A program made the translations under genes and the position numbers. From positions 1 to 41,859 of the IMG/VR virus record IMGVR_UViG_3300021964_000156: a stretch of DNA of 41,859 nt; one strand, written 5' to 3'. The DNA comes from a virus. This document shows positions 2,636-36,814 of the stretch, in pieces. The stretch's first letter is position 1, and the number at the start of each line of letters is the position of its first letter. Under the pieces are notes generated by a model that did no database searches, was not told the origin of the DNA, and worked only from the letters and a program-made list of their open reading frames with translations.

Positions 2636-2989
2636 TCATTTCGTCACCGATGGTGTTACTTGAATGCGGCCTTCAAGTATCCTTTCAATCACGGAATTTG
2701 AATCGCTATCAAGATATGAAAGTTCTACGTCATATACGTATCTTCCAGACTTGAGAACGTCAGTTTGAGTATTTGTGAGCGACAATGTGACAATGCCATC
2801 TGTTGCTGGAGAAGCGACTATTGTAGTAAAGTCGTGAGTATCGGCGCTATCGCTATTATAATTTTTCTTCATTTTAGCATTTACAGTATAGCCATTCAGA
2901 TTCTTGGCTGCACCTGCAGTATCTGTTAAATGAAGTTCAAAAGCGATGTCTGCTCCTTGATCGATGGTAAATTCTTCATACTGGGCCAT
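2636..2989 (-). CDS. Small Ig-like/BppU-N-like virion protein
   Basis: 117 aa. It starts MAQYEEFTIDQGADIAFELHL and ends in EGRIQVTPSVTK. The pattern (a polarity-alternating beta-sandwich with TxxxLKSGRYVYDVEL and ILEGRIQVTP) resembles the N-terminal fold of baseplate upper proteins and similar small phage virion proteins. The ribosome site GGAAGG is strong, 6 bases before the ATG. It is the first gene downstream of the minus-strand late promoter at 3044-3051 and heads the fibre operon running to the window start. Probably an adaptor or minor structural component; function not proven. Confidence 0.6.
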   Translation of the reverse strand: MAQYEEFTIDQGADIAFELHLTDTAGAAKNLNGYTVNAKMKKNYNSDSADTHDFTTIVASPATDGIVTLSLTNTQTDVLKSGRYVYDVELSYLDSDSNSVIERILEGRIQVTPSVTK

Positions 2990-3043: not shown

Positions 3044-3051
3044 TATTTATA
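3044..3051 (-). promoter_or_regulatory. Minus-strand T4-type late promoter, overlapping a plus-strand one
   Basis: TATTTATA on the plus strand is TATAAATA on the minus strand. It would start transcription near 3038, about 50 bases ahead of the 117-aa virion gene. It shares two bases with the plus-strand octamer at 3050-3057, giving a 14-base palindrome TATTTATATAAATA. Confidence 0.75.
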
Positions 3052-3057
3052 TAAATA
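3050..3057 (+). promoter_or_regulatory. Plus-strand T4-type late promoter for the accessory island
   Basis: An exact TATAAATA octamer. With T4 spacing the start would fall at about 3063, the A of the first ATG of the next gene, so the message could be leaderless. No Shine-Dalgarno sequence lies before that ATG. It is the only exact late promoter found on the plus strand before the island. Confidence 0.7.
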
Positions 3058-3062
3058 ATTTT

Positions 3063-3608
3063 ATGTACATGATGAAACAATGGAATGAAACTCTAGATTT
3101 GTCAAGTTTTTATGATGAGGCTCGAAAACGTGGCTATCATAATAATGACTCATACGACAGTATGATTAAGCCGTTTGAAGATCTAGATGATACTCAAATT
3201 CTTATTCTGTATTACAATGATAAAGCTGTAGGAAGTTCTATATCACATCCATTTTTAGATGGTTATCGAATATTTGCAAGGCTATGCGTATTTACAGATC
3301 TAACACCATTCAAGCGTTGTGGAACGGTTAGAGCATTTAAAGAACACCAACATATAACAGCAAGGTTCTTTTTACCAGAACACGCAAAACTCAATGGCCC
3401 TTTATATTTTACTACACATCCTGAGCCAACAGCTAAAATGAAAGGTGTTCATAATAACGCAGCTAAGTGGTTCGAACAAGCCGGAGTGTCTGCGTGGTTA
3501 GGTGACATGAAATATAGAGGATGTGTACAGTCTATTTGGAAAGTTAATACACAAAAGTGGCTTGATGATATGGACAAATATCCCATATACTATGGAAATT
3601 TAAAATAA
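3063..3608 (+). CDS. GNAT-like protein of unknown substrate
   Basis: Up to 181 aa. Three in-frame ATGs are close together (3063, 3069, 3072) and none has a clear ribosome site, so the exact start is uncertain. The order of segments (ILILYYNDKAVGSSISHPF, then RIFARLCVFTDL, then a C-terminal region with YRGCVQSIWKV) is reminiscent of GNAT-fold acyltransferases, but I see no convincing acetyl-CoA R/Q-x-x-G-x-G/A loop, so the call is tentative. It begins directly after the plus-strand late promoter and overlaps the next gene by one base (TAATG), so the two are probably translationally coupled. It opens the island of tailoring enzymes. Confidence 0.4.
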   Translation: MYMMKQWNETLDLSSFYDEARKRGYHNNDSYDSMIKPFEDLDDTQILILYYNDKAVGSSISHPFLDGYRIFARLCVFTDLTPFKRCGTVRAFKEHQHITARFFLPEHAKLNGPLYFTTHPEPTAKMKGVHNNAAKWFEQAGVSAWLGDMKYRGCVQSIWKVNTQKWLDDMDKYPIYYGNLK

Positions 3609-4102
3609 TGCATTACTATCCTACAAATATAGAACTGGATATTCCACATGAATATATTCTAGAATTCATTTCTAAAAATAATTGGACAAGACACAAAAGC
3701 ACTGTGTCAAATAGAATGACATCTTTGTGGTATACACCAATATGGCAAAACAATAATCTAATTAATGAAAATTGGAATCCAAAAATAAAAACAAAGATTC
3801 CAAGATTAAAGCATTCCGTAATATTGCTTAAGATACCGGCGCACGCTCATGAGCCTCCTCATGTAGATGGTGACAAAAATCCACGTAAGACTGCTTGGAT
3901 TTTTCCTCTTAGTGAATCATACGCTCCAACTAGATTTTATGAAGGAGATAATCTTATTGATGAATACGCAGGACAAATGTTATTAAACACTGCAAAAATT
4001 CATGAAGTTTGCAATGGTGAGAAAGACAGATATAATTTACAAATTTGTTTTGAAGAAAATATAGAAACAGTTTTAGAAGAACATTTAGATATTATTTTCT
4101 AA
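3608..4102 (+). CDS. Putative 2OG-Fe(II)/cupin-type oxygenase
   Basis: 164 aa. The central part carries HEPPHVDG (an H-x-D pair), then TAWIFPLS, then LLNTAKIHEVCNG with a distal His, followed by KDRYNLQICF where the Arg sits on a C-terminal strand. This H-x-D...H...R order is that of double-stranded beta-helix Fe(II)/2-oxoglutarate oxygenases. Substrate unknown. The gene is coupled to the upstream GNAT-like gene by a TAATG overlap and its 3' end overlaps the convergent PP-loop gene by 18 bases. A catalytically inactive cupin is the alternative. Confidence 0.5.
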   Translation: MHYYPTNIELDIPHEYILEFISKNNWTRHKSTVSNRMTSLWYTPIWQNNNLINENWNPKIKTKIPRLKHSVILLKIPAHAHEPPHVDGDKNPRKTAWIFPLSESYAPTRFYEGDNLIDEYAGQMLLNTAKIHEVCNGEKDRYNLQICFEENIETVLEEHLDIIF

Positions 4103-4732
4103 GTAACTTCTTTCTGCGCATCCAAAACATGTTCCACATTCTGATCCATTATACTTATCACATGATAAAGTAAGATCAAATAAATCTTGTATATCATAAG
4201 TTTTGTACATTTCATATATTTGAGCTTTAGTAAATTCGCTCAAAACGTAGTGAATAGGCCAATCACCAAGATTAGGACTTCTTAAAGTTTCTGCGTTGTC
4301 AATCATGTATCTTATTTTATCAAAAGTAGTTCCATGATATTTTTCTATTTTTTCAAGATAATCTAACTCTAGGATTTTTGTCGTACCAGTTAATACAATT
4401 GCGTTAATAGAATTTTCTTTCTGGTATTCAAGCGCTTCTTCTTTTAGTGCTTTTCTTGGTACTAGAGGATCATCAAATACTTTACGAATATACCTTGAAT
4501 TGTCGACATCAACACTTGGAAATTTATTTTTAACGTACTGAATAATCTTATCAGTTTTTTCAATCACGTAATACTCATTATCAACTGTCACTTCAGATAC
4601 AGGATGAATAGTAATATCAATAGAGTTTTCACTTACATATTTACATAATAAATAAAACAAAATGGCGCCCTTTGTTCCAGGCGACATAGCTAGCACAATA
4701 TCAGTTTTATCTGAAGGAATATTGAAATTCAT
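4085..4732 (-). CDS. QueC-like PP-loop (adenine nucleotide alpha-hydrolase) family protein
   Basis: 215 aa. The N-terminus (DIVLAMSPGTKGAILFYLL) sits where PP-loop enzymes carry the SGGxDS nucleotide loop; here it reads SPGTKGA, a degenerate version. The C-terminus carries a C-x7-C-x2-C-x2-C zinc motif (CDKYNGSECGTCFGC) like that of QueC (7-cyano-7-deazaguanine synthase), followed by AERSYLE as in QueC-type CxERxxAF. QueC makes preQ0 by ATP-dependent nitrile formation. With the altered loop and no queuosine neighbours here, the substrate may be different. Its 5' end is divergent to the hydroxylase gene at 4752; an exact late octamer for its strand lies at 4802-4809. Confidence 0.55.
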   Translation of the reverse strand: MNFNIPSDKTDIVLAMSPGTKGAILFYLLCKYVSENSIDITIHPVSEVTVDNEYYVIEKTDKIIQYVKNKFPSVDVDNSRYIRKVFDDPLVPRKALKEEALEYQKENSINAIVLTGTTKILELDYLEKIEKYHGTTFDKIRYMIDNAETLRSPNLGDWPIHYVLSEFTKAQIYEMYKTYDIQDLFDLTLSCDKYNGSECGTCFGCAERSYLENNI

Positions 4733-4751
4733 GATTATCTCCGAGTCTACA

Positions 4752-5252
4752 ATGCCAATTACTTTATTACCAGAAAAATTTGATGTTTCCGAATTACTAT
4801 CTATTTATAACTCTATAGACATCACATCTCAACAGATCTATATTACCTCTCTTAATGGAAAAACATATTCATATGATTCAATGGAAATGAAGAAATATAT
4901 GGCTGAAGGAAAAGCGTATCTTCTTAATGATATGATAATTATAAATGAATTGTTTAAAGATTCATATCTTGAAGATGTTTATAATGAAGTAAAAAAGAAA
5001 TACGACGTATGCCGTGCTAGATTTTTAAAGCTAGATCCTAGAATAAGAGCATATTCTTATCACAAAGATCAATCAGAAAGATATCACATACCTTTAACAA
5101 CAGACAATGACTCCATGCTTTTAATTGAAGATAACGTATATAGACTTTCAGAAATTGGAGCACTATATAAAGTTGACACACTACAGAAACACACTGCTAT
5201 GAATTTAGGTTGGAATGATAGAATACATATAGTATTTGATAAAAGGATATAA
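4752..5252 (+). CDS. Putative aspartyl/asparaginyl beta-hydroxylase-like 2OG oxygenase
   Basis: 166 aa from the ATG at 4752 (MPITLLPEKF). ATGs at 4731 and 4662 are in frame, but the latter runs antisense through the PP-loop of the opposite gene. The C-terminal half shows RYHIPLTTD, then VYRLSEIGALYKVDT, then KHTAMNLGWNDRIHIVFD. This matches the order (first His, acidic residue, distal His, Arg on the last strand) of the AspH/LpxO-like family of Fe(II)/2-oxoglutarate hydroxylases. The stop is one base before the radical SAM start, so the two are probably one operon and could act on the same substrate. Substrate not readable from sequence. Confidence 0.55.
   Translation: MPITLLPEKFDVSELLSIYNSIDITSQQIYITSLNGKTYSYDSMEMKKYMAEGKAYLLNDMIIINELFKDSYLEDVYNEVKKKYDVCRARFLKLDPRIRAYSYHKDQSERYHIPLTTDNDSMLLIEDNVYRLSEIGALYKVDTLQKHTAMNLGWNDRIHIVFDKRI
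4802..4809 (-). promoter_or_regulatory. Late promoter octamer for the PP-loop gene, inside the divergent gene
   Basis: TATAAATA on the minus strand, inside the coding region of the divergent hydroxylase gene. A start near 4796 would give a leader of about 64 bases to the ATG at 4732. Exact match, but being in a coding region it could be chance. Confidence 0.45.
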
Positions 5253-5253
5253 T

Positions 5254-6549
5254 ATGAACGAAAAAGATTATGGGTGGTTCTGCACGACTCTCTTTACTCA
5301 CATTCACACCAATGTTGACAATGAATGGAGCCCATGCTGTAGATCTACAAGAGATGAAAACTTTCCTGTTAAAACTGTAGAGAATACTACACCTCTGGAA
5401 TACTTTAATTCTGAAGAAATGAATCTTTATAGAGATTTGACTCTTGCAGGAAAAACTCCTTCTGTTTGTAAGAGATGCAGATACGAAGAAGACATCGGTG
5501 TTCAATCCTATAGACAACTATCAAACAAGTATGGTGATATTGAAAAAGCATATAAGATTGCAGATCACTATAAGAAAACAGGTGAAATAAATTTTGAAGA
5601 TAGAGTCTTAGACATTAAAGTTAAAATCTTTGGTAACTACTGTAACCTTAAATGCTTTATGTGTCATCCTCATAACTCATCATCTCGTCAAGTAGAACTA
5701 AAGAGAATGGGAAAACATTATGACTTTGATTTTCTCTCTTTAGCCCAACCAGAAAAAGATAGAACATTGTCATTTGAAAAGACTGTACACTTTGATGATG
5801 TAATTGAAGAGCTTGTAAAGTTAGCTCCATACACTACAAGGCTTAAGATTCTTGGTGGTGAACCATTTATTATGGACAGCCATTATGATCTTCTTGATAG
5901 ATATGTTGAAATAGGAGAAGCAAAAAATATTTCTCTATACTATGTTTCTAACTTGACAAAGTTCAAAAGAAAGAACAAAGACTTTTTAAAGTACATTGAT
6001 TTATTCAAAGAAGTTTTAATTACAGCTTCAATGGATGGGATATATGAACAAGCAGAATGGGTAAGATATGGATTGAATTGGAATGAGTTTGTAGAAAACC
6101 TTGAAACAATTCAAAATTATGACAACGTGCATCTCAATATTAATTTTACAGCGTCAGTATTGTCAGTTTTTCAAGCCACAGATTTTTACGACTACTTTGT
6201 TCTAGAGCATGGAATAATTCCACACGTTGATGATAATGTAGTTTTTACTCCTAATATATTAAACATGAGACACTTGCCAGACGATATAAAAGAAAAGCTG
6301 ATCACCAACATTGAAAATCATTCTCGCTCTGAAGCTTTCAAAGGAATTGTTTCGGTGTTAAAAGAAGAACGAGATGAAGAAGCTTTTCAGTTAGGTATGA
6401 CTTATATTAAATTACTCAATGATTTTAGAATGACAAATGTAGAAAAGCTTTTTCCAGAATTAGAATTCTATATCAACAACGCTAACATGGACTTACACAA
6501 TGAAGTTGAACATATTGTGCGCAAAGTGGGGAAAGCAGTATACGGATGA
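5254..6549 (+). CDS. Radical SAM protein with N-terminal SPASM/twitch-like cysteines
   Basis: 431 aa from the ATG at 5254, which has AAGGA six bases upstream; a TTG at 5236 is in frame but lacks this support. The radical SAM [4Fe-4S] motif is C130-NLK-C134-FM-C137, followed by LGGEPF, the GGE motif for S-adenosylmethionine binding. Ahead of it lie cysteines C28/C29, C72 and C75 (SPCCRS ... VCKRC), as in auxiliary-cluster (SPASM/twitch) domains, here at the N-terminus. The family generates a 5'-deoxyadenosyl radical and often modifies peptides or sugars. It follows the hydroxylase by one base and overlaps the next glycosyltransferase by 50 bases. Substrate unknown. Confidence 0.8.
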   Translation: MNEKDYGWFCTTLFTHIHTNVDNEWSPCCRSTRDENFPVKTVENTTPLEYFNSEEMNLYRDLTLAGKTPSVCKRCRYEEDIGVQSYRQLSNKYGDIEKAYKIADHYKKTGEINFEDRVLDIKVKIFGNYCNLKCFMCHPHNSSSRQVELKRMGKHYDFDFLSLAQPEKDRTLSFEKTVHFDDVIEELVKLAPYTTRLKILGGEPFIMDSHYDLLDRYVEIGEAKNISLYYVSNLTKFKRKNKDFLKYIDLFKEVLITASMDGIYEQAEWVRYGLNWNEFVENLETIQNYDNVHLNINFTASVLSVFQATDFYDYFVLEHGIIPHVDDNVVFTPNILNMRHLPDDIKEKLITNIENHSRSEAFKGIVSVLKEERDEEAFQLGMTYIKLLNDFRMTNVEKLFPELEFYINNANMDLHNEVEHIVRKVGKAVYG

Positions 6550-7186
6550 GTATGTAGAAAAACTCTATAGAGGTTGCAAAGATAAGCTACTCTATGATTT
6601 TGAATTTTACTGCTTGACAGATAATACCGATCCTATTAAAGGTGTGCACTTACGAGAACCTGATGGAATTAAGTATTGGAACTCATCTGTAAAGATGATG
6701 GACCCTCCTAAGATGCATTACTTTAGAGAGAATTTCTTAAATTTAGAGGGATATATTTTAGCTCTTGATCTAGACATGATTATTCTAGATCACTTTGATT
6801 TAAACTACAATAAGCCAACCACTATTTGGAAATATTGGAGATCTCAATCTTGGTTTGATTCTCGTCAACACGAAGAGCGTACACAGACGAATGGATCAAT
6901 GTATTTCTATAAACAAAATAGTATGGTTGACTATTTCAATGAGTATATAAAAAGAGAAGATGAATATGTTCAAGCATATGCTGGAACTGATAATTATCAT
7001 CAATATTGCGGCAAATATGGCTGGCAGTATTTTGATAAATTGACATGCTATTCGTACTCACAAGGCGCTCATGAGAATGACACAAAAAAAGAAAAGTATA
7101 GACCAGCTTATTCTACATGCATTTTTAATGGGGATTCACCAATGATTCATACCTGCAATAATTGGGTAAAAGATTATTGGAGTTAA
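6500..7186 (+). CDS. DxD glycosyltransferase, paralogue group A
   Basis: 228 aa. The start MKLNILCAKWGKQYTDEYV overlaps the radical SAM gene by 50 bases; it is fixed by likeness to the N-termini of the proteins at 9313 (INILCVKWGTAY) and 12908 (LEIICVKTGTKY). YILALDLDMIILD supplies the DxD motif that binds Mn2+ and nucleotide-sugar in GT-A enzymes. The C-terminus ends MIHTCNNWVKDYW, placing a His where GT-A enzymes often coordinate the metal. Probably transfers a sugar to a glycan or protein; donor and acceptor are unknown. It is the last plus-strand gene before a terminator hairpin at 7195. Confidence 0.75.
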   Translation: MKLNILCAKWGKQYTDEYVEKLYRGCKDKLLYDFEFYCLTDNTDPIKGVHLREPDGIKYWNSSVKMMDPPKMHYFRENFLNLEGYILALDLDMIILDHFDLNYNKPTTIWKYWRSQSWFDSRQHEERTQTNGSMYFYKQNSMVDYFNEYIKREDEYVQAYAGTDNYHQYCGKYGWQYFDKLTCYSYSQGAHENDTKKEKYRPAYSTCIFNGDSPMIHTCNNWVKDYWS

Positions 7187-7194
7187 TCTTCATA

Positions 7195-7225
7195 GATGAA
7201 CACCGGTTCATCCTTTTTCTTTTTT
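7195..7225 (+). terminator. Rho-independent terminator
   Basis: A perfect 7-base-pair stem GATGAAC/GTTCATC with loop ACCG (7195-7212) is followed by a T-rich run CTTTTTCTTTTTT. It lies 8 bases after the stop of the glycosyltransferase and ends the first plus-strand half of the island. The next gene is convergent. Confidence 0.8.
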
Positions 7226-7237
7226 AATAATCTCTTT

Positions 7238-8032
7238 TTAAGCATAAATTTTTTCATAAGTTTTCGAAAATATCTTAGCAATTTCTTCTTGCCCTTTACC
7301 GTTTGGGTGTCCATCAATCTTTGAAATCCTAAATTCTTCAATGTTTTCATTAATAATAGTGTCTAGATGATGACCTCCAATCACGTCAAAGAGTGGCCAT
7401 CCATAAAAATTTTCTACATCTAAATCATCATAATACATATGATTAAGAAAATTTTCTAGTTTTGGATATATTGTGTTTTTGATATAAGTAAAATCAAAGA
7501 AAGAAAATTGTATTGGTTTTACTCCTTGTGCAAAAATATATTTGATATTTCTTTTCTCGAGAAAATCTTTTAATATCCACATATGAAATAACGTGTCATC
7601 TAAGATTTCTCCAAAATCTAAATAATTTTCCATAATAATTTCTGATAACTCGTGTTGCAATTTATATTTTGGATTACGAGCTAATAATTTATCTTCTTGC
7701 TCTTGTGTTATCTTATTCTTTTTATCGCACATTGCAATAGGACAAAACTTACGTCCATAAAGATTAAATCTATCCCAACCAGACCATAACACTAAAACTA
7801 ATTTTACATTTGGATTTTCATTGACAGCATTAATGACTGATTGACATATGCGCTGATTTCCACTTCCACTAGTACCTAAATTTAAAACTTTATAATTATA
7901 TTGCTTACCAAAAATAGCAGGCCATTTATCCCAAGAAGTATCAAGATCCAGATGAAATATAGAAGTAAAATTAGGATCTGTAAAACTACATCCACCAGCA
8001 ATCATCAAAGGTTTCTTAGAAAACTTTAACAT
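7238..8032 (-). CDS. SGNH/GDSL-type hydrolase
   Basis: 264 aa from the ATG at 8032 (AAAGGA six bases upstream); a TTG five codons earlier is weaker. IAGGCSFTDP supplies the block I serine, NLGTSGSGNQRI gives glycine and asparagine blocks, LVLWSGWDRF is a conserved strand, and KIDGHPNGKGQEEIA near the C-terminus gives the catalytic D-x-x-H type block V (here D-G-H). The fold removes acyl or acetyl groups from sugars or lipids, or sometimes acts as an acyltransferase. Its start overlaps the 3' end of the carbamoyltransferase by 17 bases, so the two form a minus-strand pair inside the island. Substrate unknown; a glycan O-acyl group fits the context. Confidence 0.6.
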   Translation of the reverse strand: MLKFSKKPLMIAGGCSFTDPNFTSIFHLDLDTSWDKWPAIFGKQYNYKVLNLGTSGSGNQRICQSVINAVNENPNVKLVLVLWSGWDRFNLYGRKFCPIAMCDKKNKITQEQEDKLLARNPKYKLQHELSEIIMENYLDFGEILDDTLFHMWILKDFLEKRNIKYIFAQGVKPIQFSFFDFTYIKNTIYPKLENFLNHMYYDDLDVENFYGWPLFDVIGGHHLDTIINENIEEFRISKIDGHPNGKGQEEIAKIFSKTYEKIYA

Positions 8033-9323
8033 TATACATCCTTTCAAATTTAACAGCGTCTGTTAAATTATCAACCATTGGCTCACCTTTTATATTTAAA
8101 CTAGTGTTAAGTAACATAGGACATTTTGTTAAATCATACCATTCTTCTAAAATTTGCCGAAGAATCGATTTGCAGTCTTTTTTTACAATCTGAACTCTGG
8201 CCGTGCCATCAACGTGCGTAACAGAATCATAATCATGTCTTGCCTTTGCCACATATTGCATATACTCATTCATAGGACCAGAAAAATATGCATATGCGTG
8301 TTCCTCTAAAATTGCGGGGGCAAACGGTCTGAACTTTTGTCTTTTTTTAATTTCATTAACAGTGTCTTTAATAGCTCTACGAGGATCACCGATAAGACTA
8401 CGATTACCAAGGGCCCGAGGACCAAACTCAGCACGACCATGAGCCACACCACACACACCACGCTGAGAAATATATCGAGCAATTTCACGAGGATTGATGT
8501 CATTTTTTATTTCAGTTCCTAAGTATGGGTCGATCCACTTTACTTTCTTATCTATATAGGCTGCAGCAGCACCAAGACTCGATCCCGCATCTCCCGGATT
8601 AGGCATGATCCATATCTTTTCAAAAAGAGGATAAATCTTTGAATTGGCTACACAGTTAAGAGCTACACCACCGCCGTAACAAAGATACGATGAGTATGAT
8701 CGAGCTCTTTTCATAATCTTATAGATTTCATCTTCAATTATTTTTTGTGCACTCGCAGCTAGATCTTCGGGCTTTCCATCTAGTTCTATACCTCTATGAT
8801 AATATTCATATGGATCCAAATCATATAGAGGTTCACCAAACGCGGCCATGCCCATAGTAATATATTCATCTTCATTTGGCTTTAGACCACACGCCTTTGT
8901 AATAGCAGAATAGAATAATCCAAGTGACTTCGGATATTTTAATGACCAGACTTTTTTCTTTTCCCACCAAATACTGGCGGTATCCCATTCACCGATTGCA
9001 TCGATGACTACACATACCGGTTCTTCTGGCCACGGGCGGGTGTAGTACGCGCCCGCAGCATGCGACCAATGATGATGTACGTATGCATCATACTTTGGTC
9101 TGGACTTCCAAGACTGGCCAGCGTATAATCTTCGAGTATTTTTAAGAAATGGCTTTTCATAAAAGACAGTCGTGCCTTTCAGATCAAAGAGAGGAGATAA
9201 CTCCTTATCATTCTTTTTTCTGGTAAGACGCTCTGAATGAGATGCATATATAATATTACCATCGCTATCTATTGTAGCGATCGCAGCGTCATGAAAGCCG
9301 TGTGAGATACCAGTGATTAACAT
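8016..9323 (-). CDS. Carbamoyltransferase (NodU/CmcH/TobZ family), short form
   Basis: 435 aa from the ATG at 9323; a TTG at 9335 is in frame. ISHGFHDAAIATI and SERLTRKKND are the N-terminal family signatures, HHHWSHAAGAYY carries metal-binding histidines, and HGRAEFGPRALGNRSLIGDPR with FRPFAPAI is the C-terminal signature. These enzymes form carbamoyl-adenylate from carbamoyl phosphate and ATP and transfer the carbamoyl to a hydroxyl of a sugar or antibiotic. Family members I know are about 550-600 aa, so this one is shortened in the middle. It is paired with the SGNH gene and its start overlaps the divergent glycosyltransferase start by 11 bases. The acceptor is probably a glycan. Confidence 0.85.
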   Translation of the reverse strand: MLITGISHGFHDAAIATIDSDGNIIYASHSERLTRKKNDKELSPLFDLKGTTVFYEKPFLKNTRRLYAGQSWKSRPKYDAYVHHHWSHAAGAYYTRPWPEEPVCVVIDAIGEWDTASIWWEKKKVWSLKYPKSLGLFYSAITKACGLKPNEDEYITMGMAAFGEPLYDLDPYEYYHRGIELDGKPEDLAASAQKIIEDEIYKIMKRARSYSSYLCYGGGVALNCVANSKIYPLFEKIWIMPNPGDAGSSLGAAAAYIDKKVKWIDPYLGTEIKNDINPREIARYISQRGVCGVAHGRAEFGPRALGNRSLIGDPRRAIKDTVNEIKKRQKFRPFAPAILEEHAYAYFSGPMNEYMQYVAKARHDYDSVTHVDGTARVQIVKKDCKSILRQILEEWYDLTKCPMLLNTSLNIKGEPMVDNLTDAVKFERMYNVKVF

Positions 9324-9978
9324 ACTATGCGTCAAATGGGGAACAGCTTATTCATCAGAGTATGTTAATAAGTTACACTCGATGATTAGCCGGCACTTAC
9401 ATATTCCTTTTCAAATGTTCTGTCTTACCGATGATCCTCAAGGGATCATTAACGATATTACTTGTTTATCTATAATCGATGATAGATGGGAAAAATGGTG
9501 GAATAAAATTTCTCTTCTCAACGATCCAAGAATTCCAAAAAATACTTGTTTACTTTTTGATCTAGATGTGGTAATATATAATGATATTTCAAACTTAGCC
9601 TTAGAAGCAAATGATACTTTGACTATCGCAGAATCCTACTGGGTTGATCCTGTTCGAAACTTTAAGGGTTACAATCGAAATTTATCTTGTGATCTTAACT
9701 CTTCAATTATGATCTGGAGTCATACACCAGAAGTTAAGAAGATCTATGATTTCTTTGATAACAACCAAGAATATTTGGTAAACAACTATAAAGGCATTGA
9801 CAAAGTTTTTTACTATTACGAATTTGAAGAATTTGAAGTTAAGACTATTAGCAATGATTGGCTTCAATCATATCACCATACTGGATTTAACAAAGAAAAA
9901 GGATCTGTTCTTATTTTTAATCAAGGTATTAAACAGCATGAGATAGAAGATAAGTTGGTGCATGAACTATGGCATTAA
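9313..9978 (+). CDS. DxD glycosyltransferase, paralogue group A (GTG start)
   Basis: 221 aa. The start is GTG at 9313 (INILCVKWGTAYSSEYVNKL), chosen because this N-terminal motif is shared with the proteins at 6500 and 12908; the next ATG would remove it. CLLFDLDVVIYND carries the DxD motif. LNSSIMIWSH is shared in pattern with LNSSIISWKG of the 12908 protein, and both have KGIDKVFYYYEF / RGVDKYLYENF. So these two are closest relatives. The start overlaps the divergent carbamoyltransferase start by 11 bases, and the 3' end overlaps the methyltransferase by 10 bases. Sugar and acceptor unknown. Confidence 0.75.
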   Translation: MINILCVKWGTAYSSEYVNKLHSMISRHLHIPFQMFCLTDDPQGIINDITCLSIIDDRWEKWWNKISLLNDPRIPKNTCLLFDLDVVIYNDISNLALEANDTLTIAESYWVDPVRNFKGYNRNLSCDLNSSIMIWSHTPEVKKIYDFFDNNQEYLVNNYKGIDKVFYYYEFEEFEVKTISNDWLQSYHHTGFNKEKGSVLIFNQGIKQHEIEDKLVHELWH

Positions 9979-10589
9979 ATTTCGAAATACCGGTTGAATA
10001 CTTATATGAAATGCAAAGAAAACTTGACACCTTCGAAGATGTCAAAAGATATTCTGAAACATATTGCAAAACTCAAGTTGAAAGTAAACAACACTTAATT
10101 CGTTGTATGCATGAGCGTTTATACCTTCATCAAAATTATACGGTGTTTGTAATAGGAGCCTGGTACGGAACATTAATTGTTCCATATTTGCTTAATAACT
10201 TCAGAGTTAAGAAGCTCATTTTAAATGACATCGATACAAGTGTAAGAAGAATTCTTAAAAGCTACACAAAAAAGTTTACAGATAATTTTGAAATAACGCA
10301 CTATAATATGTTTGACACAAATGAATGGCATAGCCAATTAGGTGAAAACAATATTATCATTAATACGAGCTGCGAACACATGACAGATATGCATGAATTT
10401 CACGATAACTTTGCAGATGCCATTTATGCTTTACAATCAAATAATCACTTTGATCATCCTGAACACACGCACTGTGTAGCAGACTTAGAAGAATTTATCT
10501 TAAGAAGTGGATTATATTCTCTCTTCTTTGCAAATGAAATACCAATGAAAGAGTATAAGAGATTTACTCTCTTAGGAAAAAGAAGATGA
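9969..10589 (+). CDS. Class I SAM-dependent methyltransferase-like protein
   Basis: 206 aa. A hydrophobic strand and glycine-containing turn (FVIGAWYGTLIVPYLL, near residues 58-74) stands for the SAM-binding motif I. It is followed by KLILNDID, an acidic motif II, and by NIIINTSCEHMTDMHEF, which in related proteins forms motif IV. The fold is Rossmann methyltransferase. The gene overlaps both neighbours (10 bases with the glycosyltransferase before it, 4 bases ATGA with the one after), so it is inside the glycosyltransferase operon and could methylate the same glycan. No direct evidence of the acceptor. Confidence 0.6.
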   Translation: MALNFEIPVEYLYEMQRKLDTFEDVKRYSETYCKTQVESKQHLIRCMHERLYLHQNYTVFVIGAWYGTLIVPYLLNNFRVKKLILNDIDTSVRRILKSYTKKFTDNFEITHYNMFDTNEWHSQLGENNIIINTSCEHMTDMHEFHDNFADAIYALQSNNHFDHPEHTHCVADLEEFILRSGLYSLFFANEIPMKEYKRFTLLGKRR

Positions 10590-11449
10590 AAAGAATAATC
10601 TATAGCCTTTATATTGATATACCTTCTGAAAAGCTAGATGATCAGCCAGCTTATCGAGGTGACACGATATCAAAGTCAGAAAGAACAAAGATTGAATTAG
10701 CAAAGAATTATGATAAGCTAATACAGACAAAAAAGAGATATGCTAATCTTGTCGGAGCAGACTTTTTCATGTATGAGTATGATGACTATATTCCATACTA
10801 TAATGAAATGAAAAAGAAATATCCTCAAATTACAGACTACAATATCATTAATTTCTATAAAATTAAGTTGCTATATGATCTTCTCGATTATGATGAGATC
10901 TTGTATCTAGATTTTGATGTAGTTCCAATTACTAATGAAAACTTTTTTGAAGCTTGGAATCTAAGTGAAGGAATTGCAATTGCACACAATAATGATCATA
11001 TTCGTAGAAATAATAAGAAGAAACTAGATAATAGATCTCCTACAGCAAAACATTATAATTGCTCAGCTATGTTAATGGATAGAGGGCTTCCGCCATCAAA
11101 TCATGTCTATAATACAGGAATCATTGGAGCTAAATCTCGTCATTTAGAACAGCTCGATTATTTTTCTCAATTTCAATCAAATATAGATTTGATGGACTAT
11201 CTTGTGAATACTCCAGAAGAAGGAATGTTCCCAGAAAATATTTCAGCTGGCTTCGGATATGATAATGAAACGTTGTGGAGTTATAAGGTAGAAGAGACAA
11301 GCACACCTATGCAATGGCTTGATGAAAAGTGGCATTATTTCTTTGATAATGACTACATATTCAAAGACACTAAGTTTGTGCATGCTATTAATAAAAAATT
11401 TGATCATATATGGAAATACTGTGAAGAGAATAATATTCAGTATCTTTAG
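10586..11449 (+). CDS. DxD glycosyltransferase, paralogue group B
   Basis: 287 aa. MKRIIYSLYIDIP opens the protein; YDEILYLDFDVVPITNENFFEAW holds the DxD motif (DFD); NHVYNTGIIGA and KFVHAINKKFDHIW are further blocks, the last with a C-terminal His likely to touch the metal. All four blocks recur in the next gene, so the pair arose by tandem duplication. It begins by ATGA overlap with the methyltransferase. It resembles GT-A fold sugar transferases in general; I do not assign a CAZy family. Confidence 0.75.
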   Translation: MKRIIYSLYIDIPSEKLDDQPAYRGDTISKSERTKIELAKNYDKLIQTKKRYANLVGADFFMYEYDDYIPYYNEMKKKYPQITDYNIINFYKIKLLYDLLDYDEILYLDFDVVPITNENFFEAWNLSEGIAIAHNNDHIRRNNKKKLDNRSPTAKHYNCSAMLMDRGLPPSNHVYNTGIIGAKSRHLEQLDYFSQFQSNIDLMDYLVNTPEEGMFPENISAGFGYDNETLWSYKVEETSTPMQWLDEKWHYFFDNDYIFKDTKFVHAINKKFDHIWKYCEENNIQYL

Positions 11450-12203
11450 TCAGTTACCTACTCATGAAAGAGTGACTAACTATAGTTCAAATCAGTTTAA
11501 GAAATACTACGATCGTCTTTATGAAAGTAAAGATGAATATGCAAAGTTATGCTCAGCTGAATTCATGCTACTTTCTCCAAATGAAATGAGCTATATTGAT
11601 TTACAACATTATAAAATAATCATGATGGAAAAGTTTGCAGAAGAGTATGATGAAGTATTATACTTAGACTTTGACGTTATTCCTATGACAAACCAAAACT
11701 TCTTTGATGTTTTTGATTTAAATAAAATTTGTATACTAAATCAAAACACAAATCTTATTATCCAAAAAGAAATTGAGAATTATCAATATACCGAATGGCA
11801 AGGCGATTTATCTTCTAGTATTAGCAATTACAAAAAATATGTTATTCAAAAATTTCAAAGGGACGAATATCATCGATGTTCAAAAGCATTTGCAAAAAGA
11901 GAAATGCTATTTAAAGATGATATTATATCATATGATGAACACATTGTAAATACCGGAATTATTGCCGGCAATAAAAAATCTATATCTCTTCTTAAATACG
12001 AAGAAAGATTAGATAGCATGAAGTTGCTATCTAATCTTAATAATAATGAGATATTTTTTTCTTATCTTTTAGAAAGATATAACATTCCATTTACAAATAT
12101 TGGAGATGATTGGCATAGATTATATGATGAGTTGGATACTCATTTAGAAAATAGTTATATGGTTCATGTAATTAATAAACAGTTTGAGGATGTGTATGGT
12201 TAA
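11421..12203 (+). CDS. DxD glycosyltransferase, paralogue group B (GTG start)
   Basis: 260 aa from GTG at 11421 (KRIIFSIFSQLP), which lines up with MKRIIYSLYIDIP of the upstream paralogue. A longer frame from 11319 exists but is only overlap with the upstream gene in another phase. YDEVLYLDFDVIPMTNQNFFDVF holds the DxD motif; EHIVNTGIIAG and MVHVINKQFEDVYG match the paralogue. The start overlaps the upstream gene by 29 bases and its stop overlaps the next start by 8 bases, so translation is probably coupled. Function as for its paralogue; divergence in the middle suggests a different acceptor or sugar. Confidence 0.7.
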   Translation: MKRIIFSIFSQLPTHERVTNYSSNQFKKYYDRLYESKDEYAKLCSAEFMLLSPNEMSYIDLQHYKIIMMEKFAEEYDEVLYLDFDVIPMTNQNFFDVFDLNKICILNQNTNLIIQKEIENYQYTEWQGDLSSSISNYKKYVIQKFQRDEYHRCSKAFAKREMLFKDDIISYDEHIVNTGIIAGNKKSISLLKYEERLDSMKLLSNLNNNEIFFSYLLERYNIPFTNIGDDWHRLYDELDTHLENSYMVHVINKQFEDVYG

Positions 12204-12945
12204 AATCTTCTGTTTATATTTTGAAGGAAAATACACGCCTGACTACGTAGAGAAACTTTACAATTCTATAAAAAGAAATTGCAAAGTGCCTGTTCATTTT
12301 GTGTGTTACTCCGATACTCCTGTAAAGTGTGACGAGTTAATTTCACTTCCATCGAATACAAGCATTAAACAACATTGGTTTAAGATGCAGTTTTTCGATA
12401 AGAAATTTACTGGTGACGGTGAAATTATTGTAATGGATATTGATCAGGTGATTATTTCAGATATAACAGAAATGATATCATATCCTGTAAATGATAATGA
12501 ATTAGTATCTTATTGCAAGTGGTGGGGCGGTGATGACTTAAAAATTAACGGAGGTTGGTACAAGTTTAATGCTGGAAGTCTTCAAGCTGTATGGGAAAAA
12601 TTTATCAAAGATCCGGAAAAATGGCAATTACATTATTTTATTAATGGTACTGTTCACTATCGGTATTTTGGTGAGCAAAATTTTGTATATGACACTTGCG
12701 CAGAGAACGGTATTAGTGTTACAACTATGCCAGGAGAATGGGTAGCAAAATATACAGATGACTTCGATAACAATAATAAATTAAACAGACAGTATATTCA
12801 AGCATTTGATGAAATGTACATGTATTTAGGAGATGAATTCAATCCTAAAATTAAAATTGTTCACTTTGCAAATCCTAATAATACAATACACAAGCATATA
12901 AAAAACGATGACATTAGAAATAATTTGTGTAAAAACTGGTACTAA
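12196..12945 (+). CDS. DxD glycosyltransferase, diverged group A
   Basis: 249 aa from ATG 12196 (MVKIFCLYFEGKYTPDYVEKL), with GAGGA five bases upstream; in-frame TTG 12184 and ATG 12190 fit less well. The N-terminus keeps the x-I-x-C...KY..DYVEKL pattern of group A. IIVMDIDQVIISD gives DxD (DID), FNAGSLQAVW is a likely acceptor-side block, and KIKIVHFANPNNTIHKH gives a C-terminal metal-site His. It overlaps the preceding gene by 8 bases and the following by 38. Donor and acceptor unknown. Confidence 0.7.
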   Translation: MVKIFCLYFEGKYTPDYVEKLYNSIKRNCKVPVHFVCYSDTPVKCDELISLPSNTSIKQHWFKMQFFDKKFTGDGEIIVMDIDQVIISDITEMISYPVNDNELVSYCKWWGGDDLKINGGWYKFNAGSLQAVWEKFIKDPEKWQLHYFINGTVHYRYFGEQNFVYDTCAENGISVTTMPGEWVAKYTDDFDNNNKLNRQYIQAFDEMYMYLGDEFNPKIKIVHFANPNNTIHKHIKNDDIRNNLCKNWY

Positions 12946-13483
12946 GTACGATCAATGGTATGTTGATAATCTAAAGCATATGATTGACACATACTCTTGT
13001 TTAGAGTATGCTAAATTTCATGTAATTACTGAAGATCGTTATGATGATCACAGAGGCGTATTTAATAAATTATTAATGTTTGAAAAATTCACAAAGAATC
13101 AATATTTGTATTTTGATCTAGATGTAATAATTAAAGGTGACTGTAATCGATTCATATATGACAGTTTACATGTGTGTCATGCTTGGTGGAGAGATGCTTG
13201 GCATACACCTTTAAACTCATCTATCATTTCATGGAAAGGAGATGTATCTTATATACATGAAAAGTTTGCTGAAGATCCTAATTACAATATGGTAAAATAT
13301 TGGAGAGGCGTGGATAAGTATCTTTACGAAAATTTTCAGCCAAAGCGTTATTACTATGGATTCTGTTCATATCAGACTATAACAGAAGAACGACCGGAAT
13401 ACCCAGTCGTTCTTTTTAATCAGCGATATAAACATTTGAAAACTACTGGCTGGTGGAATAAATTTCAATTGCCGCACCAATAG
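12908..13483 (+). CDS. DxD glycosyltransferase, paralogue group A, last of the island
   Basis: 191 aa, the shortest of the group. MTLEIICVKTGTKYDQWYVDNL matches group A; YLYFDLDVIIKGD is the DxD block; LNSSIISWKGD and RGVDKYLYENF match the 9313 protein. It starts 38 bases inside the upstream gene and its 3' end overlaps the convergent 167-aa gene by 41 bases. The protein ends soon after VVLFNQRYKHLKTTGWW, close to the end of the 9313 protein (VLIFNQGIKQHEI), so it is not obviously truncated. Probably a small GT-A sugar transferase. Confidence 0.7.
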   Translation: MTLEIICVKTGTKYDQWYVDNLKHMIDTYSCLEYAKFHVITEDRYDDHRGVFNKLLMFEKFTKNQYLYFDLDVIIKGDCNRFIYDSLHVCHAWWRDAWHTPLNSSIISWKGDVSYIHEKFAEDPNYNMVKYWRGVDKYLYENFQPKRYYYGFCSYQTITEERPEYPVVLFNQRYKHLKTTGWWNKFQLPHQ

Positions 13484-13946
13484 CATGAACGAATGATGGA
13501 GCTTTTCTTAGTTTAGCTTTAAGTTCTCTATTATCAGATTTTCTTACTTGATCTAATTCAAATAGTGCTAGCTTTAAATTGAATAAGTCTTCTTTGTCTT
13601 TTTCTTCATCGTATTCTACAAAAACAGATTTGACAAGAGCTTCATATTTGTTTTTGCTTTGCTCTGTTAGAGCTTCTGCAATCAATCCGTCTCGTTTTGC
13701 AATTGCATAGACAACTTCTTCAAATACCTGTCTTTCTTTTCTAAAATGATTTACTGTATTTTCGTGTATTTCATCTAGAGAAATTAAGTCAAGTAGTTGC
13801 ATATAGTGTGGATGTTCTGGATTAAGTTCAATTCCATATGTGTGCAGATCTTGTTTTTTATCTTTCCAAGTCGTTTCAATAAATTTTTTTTCTTGATCTG
13901 TAAAACGCGCTGTCACAAATTTATAATCATCATTCTCAAAAAACAT
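13443..13946 (-). CDS. Hypothetical protein of the late block
   Basis: 167 aa, strongly charged and predicted mostly helical (for example NHFRKERQVFEEVVYAIAKRD and ELDQVRKSDNRELKAKLRKAP). No motif I recognise. It is the last minus-strand gene of the long late structural block, 9 bases after the 307-aa structural gene, and its 3' end overlaps the glycosyltransferase operon by 41 bases. Its position suggests expression with the structural genes. It could be a chaperone or minor component of the fibres; that is only context. Confidence 0.55.
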   Translation of the reverse strand: MFFENDDYKFVTARFTDQEKKFIETTWKDKKQDLHTYGIELNPEHPHYMQLLDLISLDEIHENTVNHFRKERQVFEEVVYAIAKRDGLIAEALTEQSKNKYEALVKSVFVEYDEEKDKEDLFNLKLALFELDQVRKSDNRELKAKLRKAPSFVHAIGAAIEIYSTSQ

Positions 13947-13955
13947 AATAATCCT

Positions 13956-14879
13956 TTAAGTCAAATTAATATTAAAAGCAGTATTAACTGTTGTCTCTGT
14001 TCCATTCGGAAATTCTTGTGCACGGTAATCATCTGTGTTTATTCGATTTGTTTGATAATTGCCAGTAACACCAGTTAAAAATGTATTGGTAAAAGTTCCA
14101 CGAGCACTTCCTGATCCACCATAGTTATATGAGATTCTATAACCAGTGTGATTTACAGCAGCCCATCTTACGTAGTTTTGCAATAGTGTGTTAAAGTTTG
14201 ATGTAGTATAAACTTGAAGATTATTGTCTGTACGAGCATATACTGGAGTGGTGTATGCAGAATCTGCACCATTGATTCTATGCAAATAATAATTTGCCAC
14301 TGTGGTAGTTTGCTCTAAAGTTTCTGGAATTCCACCAGCAGTATACGCACTTACATTTGCTTTTCTATCTCTAAAAACAATATCACCACTTACAGCAGTA
14401 GCACCACTAACAGAAGAACTTGTGCTAACAAAATATGTTCCACCTTGAGCTGTTCCAGTCGAACCAGATGAAAGAGAAGTGATAGCGGGTTCAATAAATG
14501 TATCGAGCATATCAGCAGCAGACATAGCTTGGAGATTGCCACTATTGTTGAATAATGGAAAAGCGACTCCTCCGGTGTCTGATGGTTGACTTACACTCGC
14601 AAGACTTTGTGAAATATGTGCATACGTATCTGTTGAAGTTGTAGGCTCTGCTGTTTCAGCTTCGGTAGCAAATCTATCTGCACGAGTAATAGCTGCTCCT
14701 GCGATTACGTAAGAATCTGTTAGAGATCCTAAGCTACCGCCGGACGAGACCCGTGATAATGTTACCGATGGATTAAGTGAGTAGAGGTAAATTGTTTTTG
14801 CTACAATCTGATCGATCATAGCAGATGTCATTTCTCTCAGGTTCCCACTTGACTCATATAGAGGAGTCCTGACTGCCAT
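13956..14879 (-). CDS. Virion structural protein (marine T4-like type)
   Basis: 307 aa. MAVRTPLYESSGNLREMTSAMIDQIV at the N-terminus and FPLFNNSGNLQAMSAADMLDTFI near residue 110 are two copies of one motif (P-L-[YF]-x2-SGNL-x2-M). I know the first form from structural proteins of T4-like marine phages. The remainder is Thr/Ser/Gly/Tyr-rich beta structure with little charge, and the C-terminal part includes SYNYGGSGSARGTF. It lies three bases after the repeat-rich fibre gene and is probably an appendage or fibre component. Exact place in the virion is unknown. Confidence 0.65.
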   Translation of the reverse strand: MAVRTPLYESSGNLREMTSAMIDQIVAKTIYLYSLNPSVTLSRVSSGGSLGSLTDSYVIAGAAITRADRFATEAETAEPTTSTDTYAHISQSLASVSQPSDTGGVAFPLFNNSGNLQAMSAADMLDTFIEPAITSLSSGSTGTAQGGTYFVSTSSSVSGATAVSGDIVFRDRKANVSAYTAGGIPETLEQTTTVANYYLHRINGADSAYTTPVYARTDNNLQVYTTSNFNTLLQNYVRWAAVNHTGYRISYNYGGSGSARGTFTNTFLTGVTGNYQTNRINTDDYRAQEFPNGTETTVNTAFNINLT

Positions 14880-14882
14880 AAT

Positions 14883-16472
14883 TTAACTTCCTGCGCCATA
14901 TAATGTTTTAATTGCTGAACCACTTGAATTATATATTACTAATTCAACTTCATCTTTCAAGTTAGCTCTTGCAACACCGTCATTTGCAATTGATACTGCA
15001 CCACTCGAAACACTAAAGTTTGTTGAGCTAAATGAAGCAATACCTTTATTTGAAGTAGTAGCATTTTCGCCAGAGATTGAACCAGATGATATATCAATAC
15101 CTTCACCAGCACTAAAGTGTGCTCTTACTTCAGAAGCTGAAGGACCAGTGTATGTAAGAACACCGGTTGAATTATTGTATGATAAGCTTCCATCACCACC
15201 TGCATCTGTAACTGAGATAGATTGCCTTGCACGTGCTGTGGTATGATAAAGGTTTGAGCCTTCTGGAAGACTAGAGGTTGATGCGTCGCCGAGGTCCGAA
15301 TCAAAGTTTGCTTTTGTATAGATTGTTTCTACGTCGATACTAAAGACGCCGGTGCTACTATTATACGATAAGTCACCACTTGCAGACACGGCACTGCGAA
15401 TATCAGTAGTCTGGTTTGTATTAGCAGAATCGACTCGACTGACTAATTCATTGATAGCTGCTACAGTGCTTACTTTAGTGCTAGTAGTAAGAGAGCTAAC
15501 ATCACCGACAACATTCACAAAAGCCAAATCAGAATCAATTTGACCGATTTCAGTTTGTAATTCATTAATTGCTGAAACTAATGAAGATTTATCACTAGTA
15601 GTCAATGAACTTAGAGTTCCAACATCGGAATCAACATTATCGAGTTGAGTATGTAATTCATTGATAGCAGTGACTGCTGTAGAAGCAGAAGTAGCGAGTG
15701 CTGTTACATCTCCAAGTTCTGTTCTCAATTCTCTAGCTGCAGCTGATAAGTCTGAAGCTGACAATCCAGTCAGAGACATATTACCAATGTCAGTCTCATG
15801 CTCATTGATTGCTGCTGTCAAATTAGATGCAGTCGTATTTAATGACATGCTACCGATGTCGGTTTCATGCTCGTTGATAGCACCGACTAAAGTTTGAGCA
15901 GTGGTATTTAATCCACCAGTTCCAATCGAATCATTGATAGTAGTAATGTCAGCTTCATGCTCGTTGATAGCACCACGAAGTGTAGTAGCACTTGTATTCA
16001 GTGAAGCTGCACCAATCTCAGTGTCATGCTCGTTAATAGCACCAATCAGAGTTTGGGCTGTAGTATTAAGTCCACCGGTTCCGATTGAATCATTGATTGT
16101 CGTAAGATCAGCTTCATGCTCATTGATAGCTGTAACTACTGTGGAAGCTGTTGTATTAAGAGCGGTGACATCACCTACTTCAGAAATGGTTTCACGAATT
16201 GCACCAGAAATATCAGTCGCTGACAATCCAGTGAATGTCATATTGCCGATATCAGTTTCATGCTCGTTAATTGCACCTACGATTGTTTGAGCCGTAGTGT
16301 TAAGTGAACTCGGAGTTCCGATATCTGAATCTAGACTATTGATCGCTCCAACTAAGTCAGAGTCAATATTAGTCGTTAGATTAGATAAATCACCAACTTT
16401 ATCCGATAGTTGGTTATTTTTATCGACCCAACCAGTTACGGTGTCGGTGTAATTAACGATAATTTTTGCCAT
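14883..16472 (-). CDS. Repeat-rich fibre protein with AINEHE repeats
   Basis: 529 aa. The N-terminal ~330 residues carry about ten copies of a degenerate unit built around LNTTAxTxVxAINEHExDIG, with longer blocks duplicated (GLSATDISGAI... and GLSASDLSAAA..., each followed by GDVTAL). The heptad-like spacing of hydrophobic residues fits an elongated, possibly coiled-coil trimeric shaft. The C-terminal third switches to fibre-type beta modules (YHTTARARQSISVTDAGGDG, then NKGIASFSSTNFSVSSG), the latter shared with the fibre at the window start. Starts by TAATG overlap with the 67-aa gene; an internal late promoter octamer lies 128-135 bases upstream. Confidence 0.7.
   Translation of the reverse strand: MAKIIVNYTDTVTGWVDKNNQLSDKVGDLSNLTTNIDSDLVGAINSLDSDIGTPSSLNTTAQTIVGAINEHETDIGNMTFTGLSATDISGAIRETISEVGDVTALNTTASTVVTAINEHEADLTTINDSIGTGGLNTTAQTLIGAINEHDTEIGAASLNTSATTLRGAINEHEADITTINDSIGTGGLNTTAQTLVGAINEHETDIGSMSLNTTASNLTAAINEHETDIGNMSLTGLSASDLSAAARELRTELGDVTALATSASTAVTAINELHTQLDNVDSDVGTLSSLTTSDKSSLVSAINELQTEIGQIDSDLAFVNVVGDVSSLTTSTKVSTVAAINELVSRVDSANTNQTTDIRSAVSASGDLSYNSSTGVFSIDVETIYTKANFDSDLGDASTSSLPEGSNLYHTTARARQSISVTDAGGDGSLSYNNSTGVLTYTGPSASEVRAHFSAGEGIDISSGSISGENATTSNKGIASFSSTNFSVSSGAVSIANDGVARANLKDEVELVIYNSSGSAIKTLYGAGS
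15640..16330 (-). repeat. Tandem degenerate coding repeats (AINEHE units)
   Basis: On the plus strand the segment TCATGCTC(A/G)TT(A/G)AT(A/T)GC recurs about six times between 15,787 and 16,275, and weaker copies extend the array on both sides. All copies are in the fibre reading frame and vary mostly at third positions, as expected of selected protein repeats. Unit lengths vary, so it is not a CRISPR or a satellite. Confidence 0.7.
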
Positions 16473-32114: not shown

Positions 32115-32899
32115 TATGCTAACCTATCATAAAACTTTTTAGCTTCTACTATGCGAGTATCTGTACTTCCGGGCTGAGGTCTTTCATAGCGAAATTCAAA
32201 AATCTTAGATGCAATTTCAACAGTCTGAGCATCTTTCAAATCTCCAAGATTTTTATCTACTCTATATCCCGGTGTTTTATCCAAGTCATATTTTAAGAAT
32301 TTTAATTGCCCGTTGAGTGACGTTGGATCATATCCGTTTAGTGTGCAATATTCAAATAGCTCTTGCTTTCTATTCACTGCCGGATTCCATTGAGCCAATC
32401 CAAAAGACTCTTCGCCTGGAACCTGTGAAATAGCTTTCGGATTTAGACCAGATTCATGTTGTAAATTACCCATAATTCCACAGGCCTGCTTAGGCGTATA
32501 TGCATGTTGATCCGAAGAGATAAGATAAAGAAAAATCTTTTCTGCAGTAGATTCACCCGGAAGCTCATCATCTACAGTAATATCCTGTTCACCTTCTTCA
32601 ATCTTTGGAATAGAACCAAGAACAAGTGGAAGTTGTGAATTCTTTCCATCCAAAAAAATTCCAAAAACTTGAGCTGTCACAACAAGTCGAGAATTTGCAC
32701 CAAATCCAGTAGTTCCTTCTTCAGTTACAGGAATCATGACTTGAGCCCATGGTAGTGCATAATCAGGAATATCCTGACGATTTGAACTATGAATCCCATA
32801 AATTCTTACTTTTACTCGACCGAGATAGAGAGGATCGTTATTATCGACAACCCTTCCAATAAACCATCGAGTTTCATCTCCGTAAAAATCAAGAGACAT
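32114..32899 (-). CDS. 5: Baseplate hub gp5-like: OB-fold plus tail lysozyme
   Basis: 261 aa from ATG 32899 (MSLDFYGDETRWFIGRV), with GAGGA eight bases upstream; the longer frame runs into the gp27-like gene. Residues ~10-110 form the gp5/VgrG OB-fold (VVDNNDPLYLGRVKVRIYGIH, ALPWAQVMIPVT, FLDGKNSQLPLVLGSIPK). Residues ~125-255 match the phage tail lysozyme family (CGIMGNLQHESGLNP with the catalytic Glu, SFGLAQWN). T4 gp5 has an OB-fold, a T4-type lysozyme and a beta-helix in one chain; here the beta-helix is a separate gene (28648-30027) and the lysozyme is of another family. It overlaps the hub gene by 11 bases. Confidence 0.75.
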   Translation of the reverse strand: MSLDFYGDETRWFIGRVVDNNDPLYLGRVKVRIYGIHSSNRQDIPDYALPWAQVMIPVTEEGTTGFGANSRLVVTAQVFGIFLDGKNSQLPLVLGSIPKIEEGEQDITVDDELPGESTAEKIFLYLISSDQHAYTPKQACGIMGNLQHESGLNPKAISQVPGEESFGLAQWNPAVNRKQELFEYCTLNGYDPTSLNGQLKFLKYDLDKTPGYRVDKNLGDLKDAQTVEIASKIFEFRYERPQPGSTDTRIVEAKKFYDRLA

Positions 32900-36809: not shown

Positions 36810-36814
36810 CGATT

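Follow-up and report, generated by a model that had tools for sequence, protein, structure and literature searches.

An enzyme cassette that recurs beside the tail fibre genes of a marine T4-like phage, and its possible role in fibre glycosylation

The IMG/VR virus record IMGVR_UViG_3300021964_000156 (positions 1–41,859, the whole of which is referred to here as the window) displays an island of enzyme genes at positions 3063–13483 that lies among genes for tail fibres. The question raised by this locus is what the enzymes make, and whether their product is placed on the virion or on the surface of the host cell. A first-pass annotation, made from the sequence without database searches, had left the choice between a decorated glycan on virion fibres or the host surface and a modified peptide-sugar conjugate. 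Comparison of the flanking fibre genes with those of related phages, which that annotation had proposed as a check, shows that the island is a recurring variable cassette at a fixed fibre site.

At 41.9 kb, the window covers part of the genome of a marine T4-like myovirus. The gp6 that it encodes is 43% identical to that of Phage C48C1, 36% to Methylophilales phage Melnitz and 32–35% to Pelagibacter phages HTVC008M and Mosig; the nearest relevant isolate is Pelagibacter phage Mosig EXVC030M. A further contig, IMGVR_UViG_3300044723_008170, matches the window at 99.997% identity across 31,379 bases, thus the same virus has been assembled at least two times. No near-identical DNA was found in phage records.

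The island has 14 stop-free open reading frames with overlaps at the junctions where tight overlaps had been described. Start sites taken from the sequence required small corrections: ATG 6500 for F, which gives a 50-nt overlap with E, GTG 11421 for L, ATG 12196 for M, 8032 for G and 9323 for H. The genes, including those for S-adenosylmethionine (SAM) enzymes and a glycosyltransferase related to family 8 (GT8), and the two neighbours on which the argument depends are as follows.

3063–3608, plus strand: A, candidate GNAT/FeeM-like acyltransferase, left module (open reading frame, weak FeeM/Acetyltransf_1 matches)
3608–4102, plus strand: B, candidate 2-oxoglutarate oxygenase of the Asp_Arg_Hydrox type, left module (residues aligned with the D family)
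4085–4732, minus strand: C, QueC-like PP-loop relative with a degenerate loop, left module (C-terminal PF06508 match, motifs)
4752–5252, plus strand: D, putative Asp_Arg_Hydrox-type 2-oxoglutarate oxygenase, left module (PF05118; conserved HxD, H and R)
5254–6549, plus strand: E, N-twitch radical SAM enzyme, left module (NF033640)
6500–7186, plus strand: F, predicted glycosyltransferase (DxD), relative of I (phmmer, DLD at 77)
7238–8032, minus strand: G, putative SGNH hydrolase/acyltransferase, core module (GCSFT and DGHPN motifs)
8016–9323, minus strand: H, carbamoyltransferase, core module (PF16861/PF02543)
9313–9978, plus strand: I, predicted glycosyltransferase (phrog_1962, 2.4e-11)
9969–10589, plus strand: J, SAM-dependent methyltransferase-like protein, core (family alignment, profile 7e-6)
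10586–11449, plus strand: K, GT8-like glycosyltransferase, core (PF01501, 4.9e-6)
11421–12203, plus strand: L, predicted glycosyltransferase, paralogue of K (phmmer, 1e-16)
12196–12945, plus strand: M, predicted glycosyltransferase, core (phrog_1962, 1.6e-14)
12908–13483, plus strand: N, predicted glycosyltransferase, core, usually adjoins R (phrog_1962, 7.7e-4)
13443–13946, minus strand: R13443 (R), 167-amino acid fibre-operon protein, candidate adaptor or acceptor (synteny, co-variation)
13956–14879, minus strand: fib13956, candidate fibre-locus virion protein beside the cassette (395 IMG/VR relatives)

The 3' ends of N and R share 41 bases (window 13443–13483).

A scan of IMG/VR with fib13956 gave 395 confirmed relatives, and the loci of the best 80 of the 395 were analysed. 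Synteny was counted in 49 non-redundant loci, each with at least 2.5 kb beyond R; these loci are kin to one another and the counts are not independent events. The order in the relatives runs from gp10/VrlC through the fibre genes to fib13956, followed by an optional 242-amino acid nucleotide-sugar epimerase, R and the enzyme cassette. The cassette is usually opposite in strand to the fibre genes, and on long-enough contigs an L-fibre assembly gene is often found beyond it. A glycosyltransferase of the island's families is present in 47 of the 49 loci and directly follows R in 37; N itself is immediately after R in 28. Homologues of J (45 loci), M (38), K (37), N (33), H (26) and G (21) are the most frequent, followed by E (17), L (14), I (12), C (7), D (6), F (4) and B (1).

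Searches that start from the enzymes lead back to the same site. All 26 contigs longer than 18 kb that were found with K carry fib13956 or R. In the set of 50,697 phage records, Mosig alone carries fib13956, K and J, side by side, and M is found in Mosig and as one weak partial match in C48C1; HTVC008M, Melnitz and C48C1 have neither fib13956 nor such a cassette at the site. The fibre proteins of the relatives are about 50% identical and the gene content is shuffled, hence common ancestry alone accounts poorly for the link between fibre and cassette. The right module, R together with G–N, is a fibre-linked core. R belongs with the cassette, and the island limit drawn in the first-pass annotation had missed it.

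The left module behaves differently. Among 79 loci fetched by way of the radical SAM family, K, M, N and R are found in one each, whereas J-like genes are present in 54 and relatives of D, C and A in 41, 23 and 11. Since the radical SAM loci mostly lack K, M, N and R, genes A–E belong to a radical SAM/oxygenase/PP-loop set that travels alone in phages. The two modules are joined in the window, as they are in L304 (L-numbers denote loci or contigs fetched for comparison). Independent scattering of the genes, which had been named as an observation that would speak against a single pathway, is thus true of the radical SAM, oxygenase and PP-loop genes and not of the glycosyltransferase core.

Several other loci display related gene sets. 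L302, L351, L304, L288, L294 and L300 have 8–9 N-twitch radical SAM genes per 18–21 kb, together with oxygenases and PP-loop proteins. A radical SAM set with an amidinotransferase-like protein, recognized by eye, is found in phage contigs and in Bdellovibrionia chromosomes (L289 5610–11194, L186 669–11197); the L289 copy of that protein gave no Pfam match, and the Bdellovibrionia copies of the set are accompanied by Asp_Arg_Hydrox relatives. L198 and L195 are contigs with phage genes binned to Flavobacteria metagenome-assembled genomes (MAGs) and appear misbinned; L198 shows the full order of gp10, fibre, R and radical SAM genes, and L195 has radical SAM, glycosyltransferase and J-like genes. 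At the end of the HTVC008M fibre locus (L201 23403–26682, HTVC008M 56402–59681) the opposite strand encodes four 2OG-Fe(II) oxygenases and a ferrochelatase, in place of glycosyltransferases.

What the left module encodes can be read with differing firmness. E scores 322 bits against the N-twitch radical SAM family NF033640 (cut-off 170, 5.5e-96) and displays CNLKCFMC, i.e. the CxxxCxxC motif, plus five N-terminal cysteines; the profile match makes the assignment of E as an N-twitch radical SAM enzyme certain. A radical SAM enzyme had been predicted here, but with SPASM-like cysteines. The NF033640 match identifies the extra cysteines with an N-terminal "twitch" and not with a C-terminal SPASM domain, and that part of the prediction is dropped. 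Two 2-oxoglutarate (2OG) oxygenases had also been proposed. D has a weak match to PF05118 (Asp_Arg_Hydrox, 2.2e-4) with HxD, H and R conserved, which is consistent with the proposal. B has no Pfam match; an alignment shows that it shares the HxD...H...R residues with the D family, and B is probably an oxygenase of the same type.

C matches QueC (PF06508) at its C-terminal zinc end only (0.0015), where CxxCxxC is intact, and its score against QueC, the preQ0 synthase, is far under the family cut-off. The SGGxDS motif of the PP-loop is replaced by SPGTKG. Because C has lost a loop that most of its relatives retain, it is probably not an active PP-loop enzyme. The QueC likeness noted earlier therefore applies to the zinc end, and the degenerate loop had been overlooked. 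A belongs to an 8-member family, and its weak profile matches hint that it may be a GNAT/FeeM-like acyltransferase; a PDB profile search with A gave no match. Single-sequence scans recovered close relatives of A and B in the same virus only, and further relatives of A surfaced through the radical SAM loci only.

The left module might act directly on fibre side chains by hydroxylation, formation of C–C bonds or epimerisation, with the glycosyltransferases acting on the residues so modified. Asp_Arg_Hydrox enzymes classically target Asp/Asn side chains, and in L117, L145, L179 and L304 N-twitch radical SAM and PP-loop genes come immediately or almost immediately after R. Set against this, the module is absent from most fibre cassettes, as the counts for E, D and C given above show, and is common without this fibre module; in addition we know of no substrate for the N-twitch radical SAM family. 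This explanation is considered improbable.

The core module is richer in recognizable enzymes. H matches PF16861 (1.6e-47) and PF02543 (2.1e-38), has the catalytic motifs present, and is related in the PDB to novobiocin carbamoyltransferase, GdmN and TobZ; these matches identify it with certainty as a carbamoyltransferase, and for H as for E the strong profile matches confirm the first assignment. The count of six glycosyltransferases also holds. K is GT8-like, and PF01501 is matched by 10 of 29 K relatives as well, while a PDB profile search with K gave no match. I, M and N match the phrog_1962 "glycosyltransferase" family; L is tied to K by paralogy, and F to I by phmmer (3e-9) and a start motif in common. 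The profile match of J is to the spermidine synthase/methyltransferase fold, which agrees with the methyltransferase first proposed; J is, by sequence, a Rossmann methyltransferase/spermidine-synthase-like protein. The motifs of G fit the SGNH hydrolase named before, but the SGNH profile match is weak (0.017), and it is more tentatively called an SGNH hydrolase/acyltransferase. No signal peptide was seen in G.

The same Pfam carbamoyltransferase domains as those of H are found in the phage 5-carbamoyloxymethylcytosine transferase, which acts on cytosine in some phages (PMC8670742), and the carbamoyltransferase and glycosyltransferases of the island could be imagined to act on hydroxymethylcytosine in DNA. 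The cytosine-modifying genes described there are accompanied by thymidylate synthase and dCMP deaminase (PMC8670742). No thymidylate synthase, dCMP hydroxymethylase or deaminase was recognized on reading the open reading frames of the window, which is itself a contig fragment. The 5-carbamoyloxymethylcytosine locus has other neighbours than the island, whose surroundings are fibre, SGNH and amino-sugar genes, and late expression would follow most replication. A role in DNA modification is accordingly extremely unlikely.

The sister cassettes bear on the nature of the product. They encode DegT/PseC/LegC-like aminotransferases and nucleotide-sugar epimerases/dehydratases; one epimerase gene lies between fib13956 and R, in the orientation of the fibre genes, and Mosig encodes an ArnB-like aminotransferase. 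Because these sugar-nucleotide enzymes occur together with glycosyltransferases and methyl-, carbamoyl- and SGNH enzymes, the product of the cassette is very probably a glycan. A ribosomally synthesized and post-translationally modified peptide (RiPP), or another peptide natural product with its own small precursor, was considered as well, since radical SAM enzymes often mature peptides and arrays of up to nine such genes are found in other phage contigs. No gene for a precursor peptide fits in the island, where the longest intergenic gap is 73 nt and is occupied by promoter motifs, and the core consists of glycosyltransferases. A peptide pathway is thus very unlikely, and the same ground speaks against a peptide-sugar conjugate whose precursor has a gene of its own.

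None of the 14 island proteins reaches a mean hydropathy of 1.6 over 19 residues, the customary threshold for a membrane helix, C and J falling just short of it, and Pfam scans of the 14 products showed no Gtr-type membrane glycosyltransferase, flippase or polymerase. Bacterial polysaccharide loci had been suggested as a place to look for the same gene set. Relatives of H and G are found near two N-twitch radical SAM genes in an Alphaproteobacteria MAG chromosome contig (L187 1043–9133), which is a possible bacterial source or counterpart; no classical polysaccharide locus was found to hold the complete set.

The island edges are marked by late-promoter motifs. The exact sequence TATAAATA is found eight times in the window, and all eight sites precede a gene start by 5–127 nt in the correct orientation, a placement with a chance probability of about 3e-10. 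Three of them mark the island edges, one ahead of A, one ahead of C and one ahead of the adjoining fibre-assembly gene, so that the earlier view of expression at least in part from a late promoter is retained. These and the remaining features of the locus are:

3050–3057: late-promoter motif of A (exact motif)
4802–4809: late-promoter motif of C (exact motif)
3044–3057, both strands: divergent, overlapping late-promoter motifs, TATAAATA on both strands (motif scan)
2636–2989, minus strand: relative of L-shaped tail fibre assembly proteins, far island border (phrog_3304, 1.7e-18)
7195–7212, plus strand: terminator-like hairpin between the convergent genes F and G (hairpin scan)
14883–16472, minus strand: fib14883, tail fibre protein (phrog_25848 tail fiber, 1.5e-26)

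Within 36802–36815 and 3050–3063, late-promoter motifs end five bases before the start codon, which leaves no room for a ribosome-binding site; translation may begin from leaderless transcripts there, or at true starts farther downstream. Elsewhere in the window, positions 30030–32968 encode two tail proteins in which amidase (peptidoglycan recognition protein, PGRP)-like and lysozyme-like stretches were judged by eye.

The small protein R varies with the enzymes. This was initially noticed on up to 48 loci. In the 21 loci that have all seven compared genes, R distances correlate with those of N, M, K and J (r 0.80–0.87; 0.85–0.87 for the glycosyltransferases). Partial Mantel correlations of R with these enzymes given the fibre gene are 0.66–0.75 (permutation p 0.001), and fibre-enzyme partial correlations given R are −0.12 to 0.26. 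Because R and not the fibre gene tracks the enzymes, the boundary of exchange seems to be between fib13956 and R, though both are on the fibre strand. R is possibly an adaptor, an acceptor or, as the null case, merely the outermost gene of the exchanged block; a role as adaptor or acceptor is proposed with weak to moderate confidence. The AlphaFold2 model of R is confident (pLDDT 91), and fold searches gave no confident match. The fib13956 protein (model pLDDT 89) has three internal repeats by eye; searches of solved and viral predicted structures likewise gave no confident match.

The island may then be an exchangeable glycosylation cassette of a pelagimyophage-like T4-type fibre locus. Late in infection, cytoplasmic K, L, M, N, I and F would build a short glycan on a virion fibre component; the glycan would be methylated by J, carbamoylated by H and O-acylated or de-acylated by G and perhaps A, in an order that is speculative. 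R, as a fibre-operon product, would link fibre and enzymes in the role of adaptor or acceptor, and the left module (E, B, D, C) would be an optional extra that acts either on the sugar or on side chains of the acceptor. A virion acceptor is favoured, with moderate confidence, because of the position of the cassette, the late-promoter motifs, the absence of membrane machinery, and R. There is good support for a decorated-glycan pathway linked to the fibre locus, from the fixed-site cassette, the sugar-nucleotide enzymes of the sisters and the late promoters at the edges; for late, cytoplasmic glycosylation of a virion fibre by way of R, the chances appear about even. Searches of the available literature on phage-encoded virion glycosylation gave nothing usable as experimental precedent.

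Other observations weigh against fibre glycosylation. Most glycosyltransferase operons of the relatives have no exact late promoter upstream, and the exact motifs are few there, so late promoters as a general trait of these operons were not borne out. R could track the enzymes merely through a recombination boundary between fib13956 and R. GT8 enzymes are commonly lipopolysaccharide (LPS) enzymes, and those who described the pelagimyophage host recognition cluster (HRC) preferred modification of the host O-chain (PMC7029224).

The cassette could accordingly alter a host surface glycan, e.g. outer LPS sugars, and block the binding of sibling or competing phages. Receptor binding and receptor alteration would need to match, thus host-surface genes could likewise be co-inherited with receptor-binding fibres, and the LPS-type and sugar-nucleotide enzymes would be expected. 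The 14 products lack a membrane glycosyltransferase, flippase, polymerase or Gtr-type protein, the edge promoter motifs are late and not early, and a small co-varying fibre-operon protein is left unexplained by this alone. Alteration of the host surface is the main rival to fibre glycosylation, a serious possibility but the less probable of the two.

If fibre glycosylation is correct, exchangeable sugars are attached to the receptor-binding apparatus in a large uncultured group of ocean phages, which would bear on host range, and glycosyltransferases long annotated as LPS genes would have another job. A broader proposal, that the R family are dedicated adaptors or acceptors which let abundant ocean phages swap fibre glycosylation cassettes with unusual radical SAM/oxygenase chemistry, is unlikely on present evidence. 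Because R co-varies with the enzymes and the cultured phage Mosig, the only cassette-bearing relative with a known host, has the cassette, the choice between fibre and host is directly testable.

Gtr-type O-antigen seroconversion cassettes consist of phage-borne membrane glycosyltransferases and a flippase. The island resembles them in its phage-borne glycosyltransferases and differs in having no Gtr membrane proteins or flippase. The Mosig EXVC030M region 60990–74403 (MT647606) is much closer: its counterparts of fib13956, R, N, M, K, J, H and G are arranged as in the window, with the cassette opposite the fibre strand. Mosig differs in having a sugar aminotransferase, MoaA-like radical SAMs, nitroreductase-like proteins and an epimerase, and counterparts of A, B, C, E, F, I and L were not detected in its cassette.

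The kind of island is already known as the pelagimyophage HRC, a hypervariable fibre-region island after VrlC with several GT8 glycosyltransferases and radical SAM cassettes (PMC7029224, Zaragoza-Solas et al. 2020). The window island is likewise after VrlC/gp10 among fibre genes, is hypervariable in gene content between relatives, and has several glycosyltransferases with GT8 prominent. On its other side the pelagimyophage cluster, in phages of SAR11, is bordered by the neck gene gp14, and the window ends short of that gene. The published description treats one variable region, whereas a fibre-linked core with R and an independent radical SAM/oxygenase module are distinguished here. As far as the literature searched shows, this two-module dissection, the two-way link with fib13956 and R, and the degenerate PP-loop are new.

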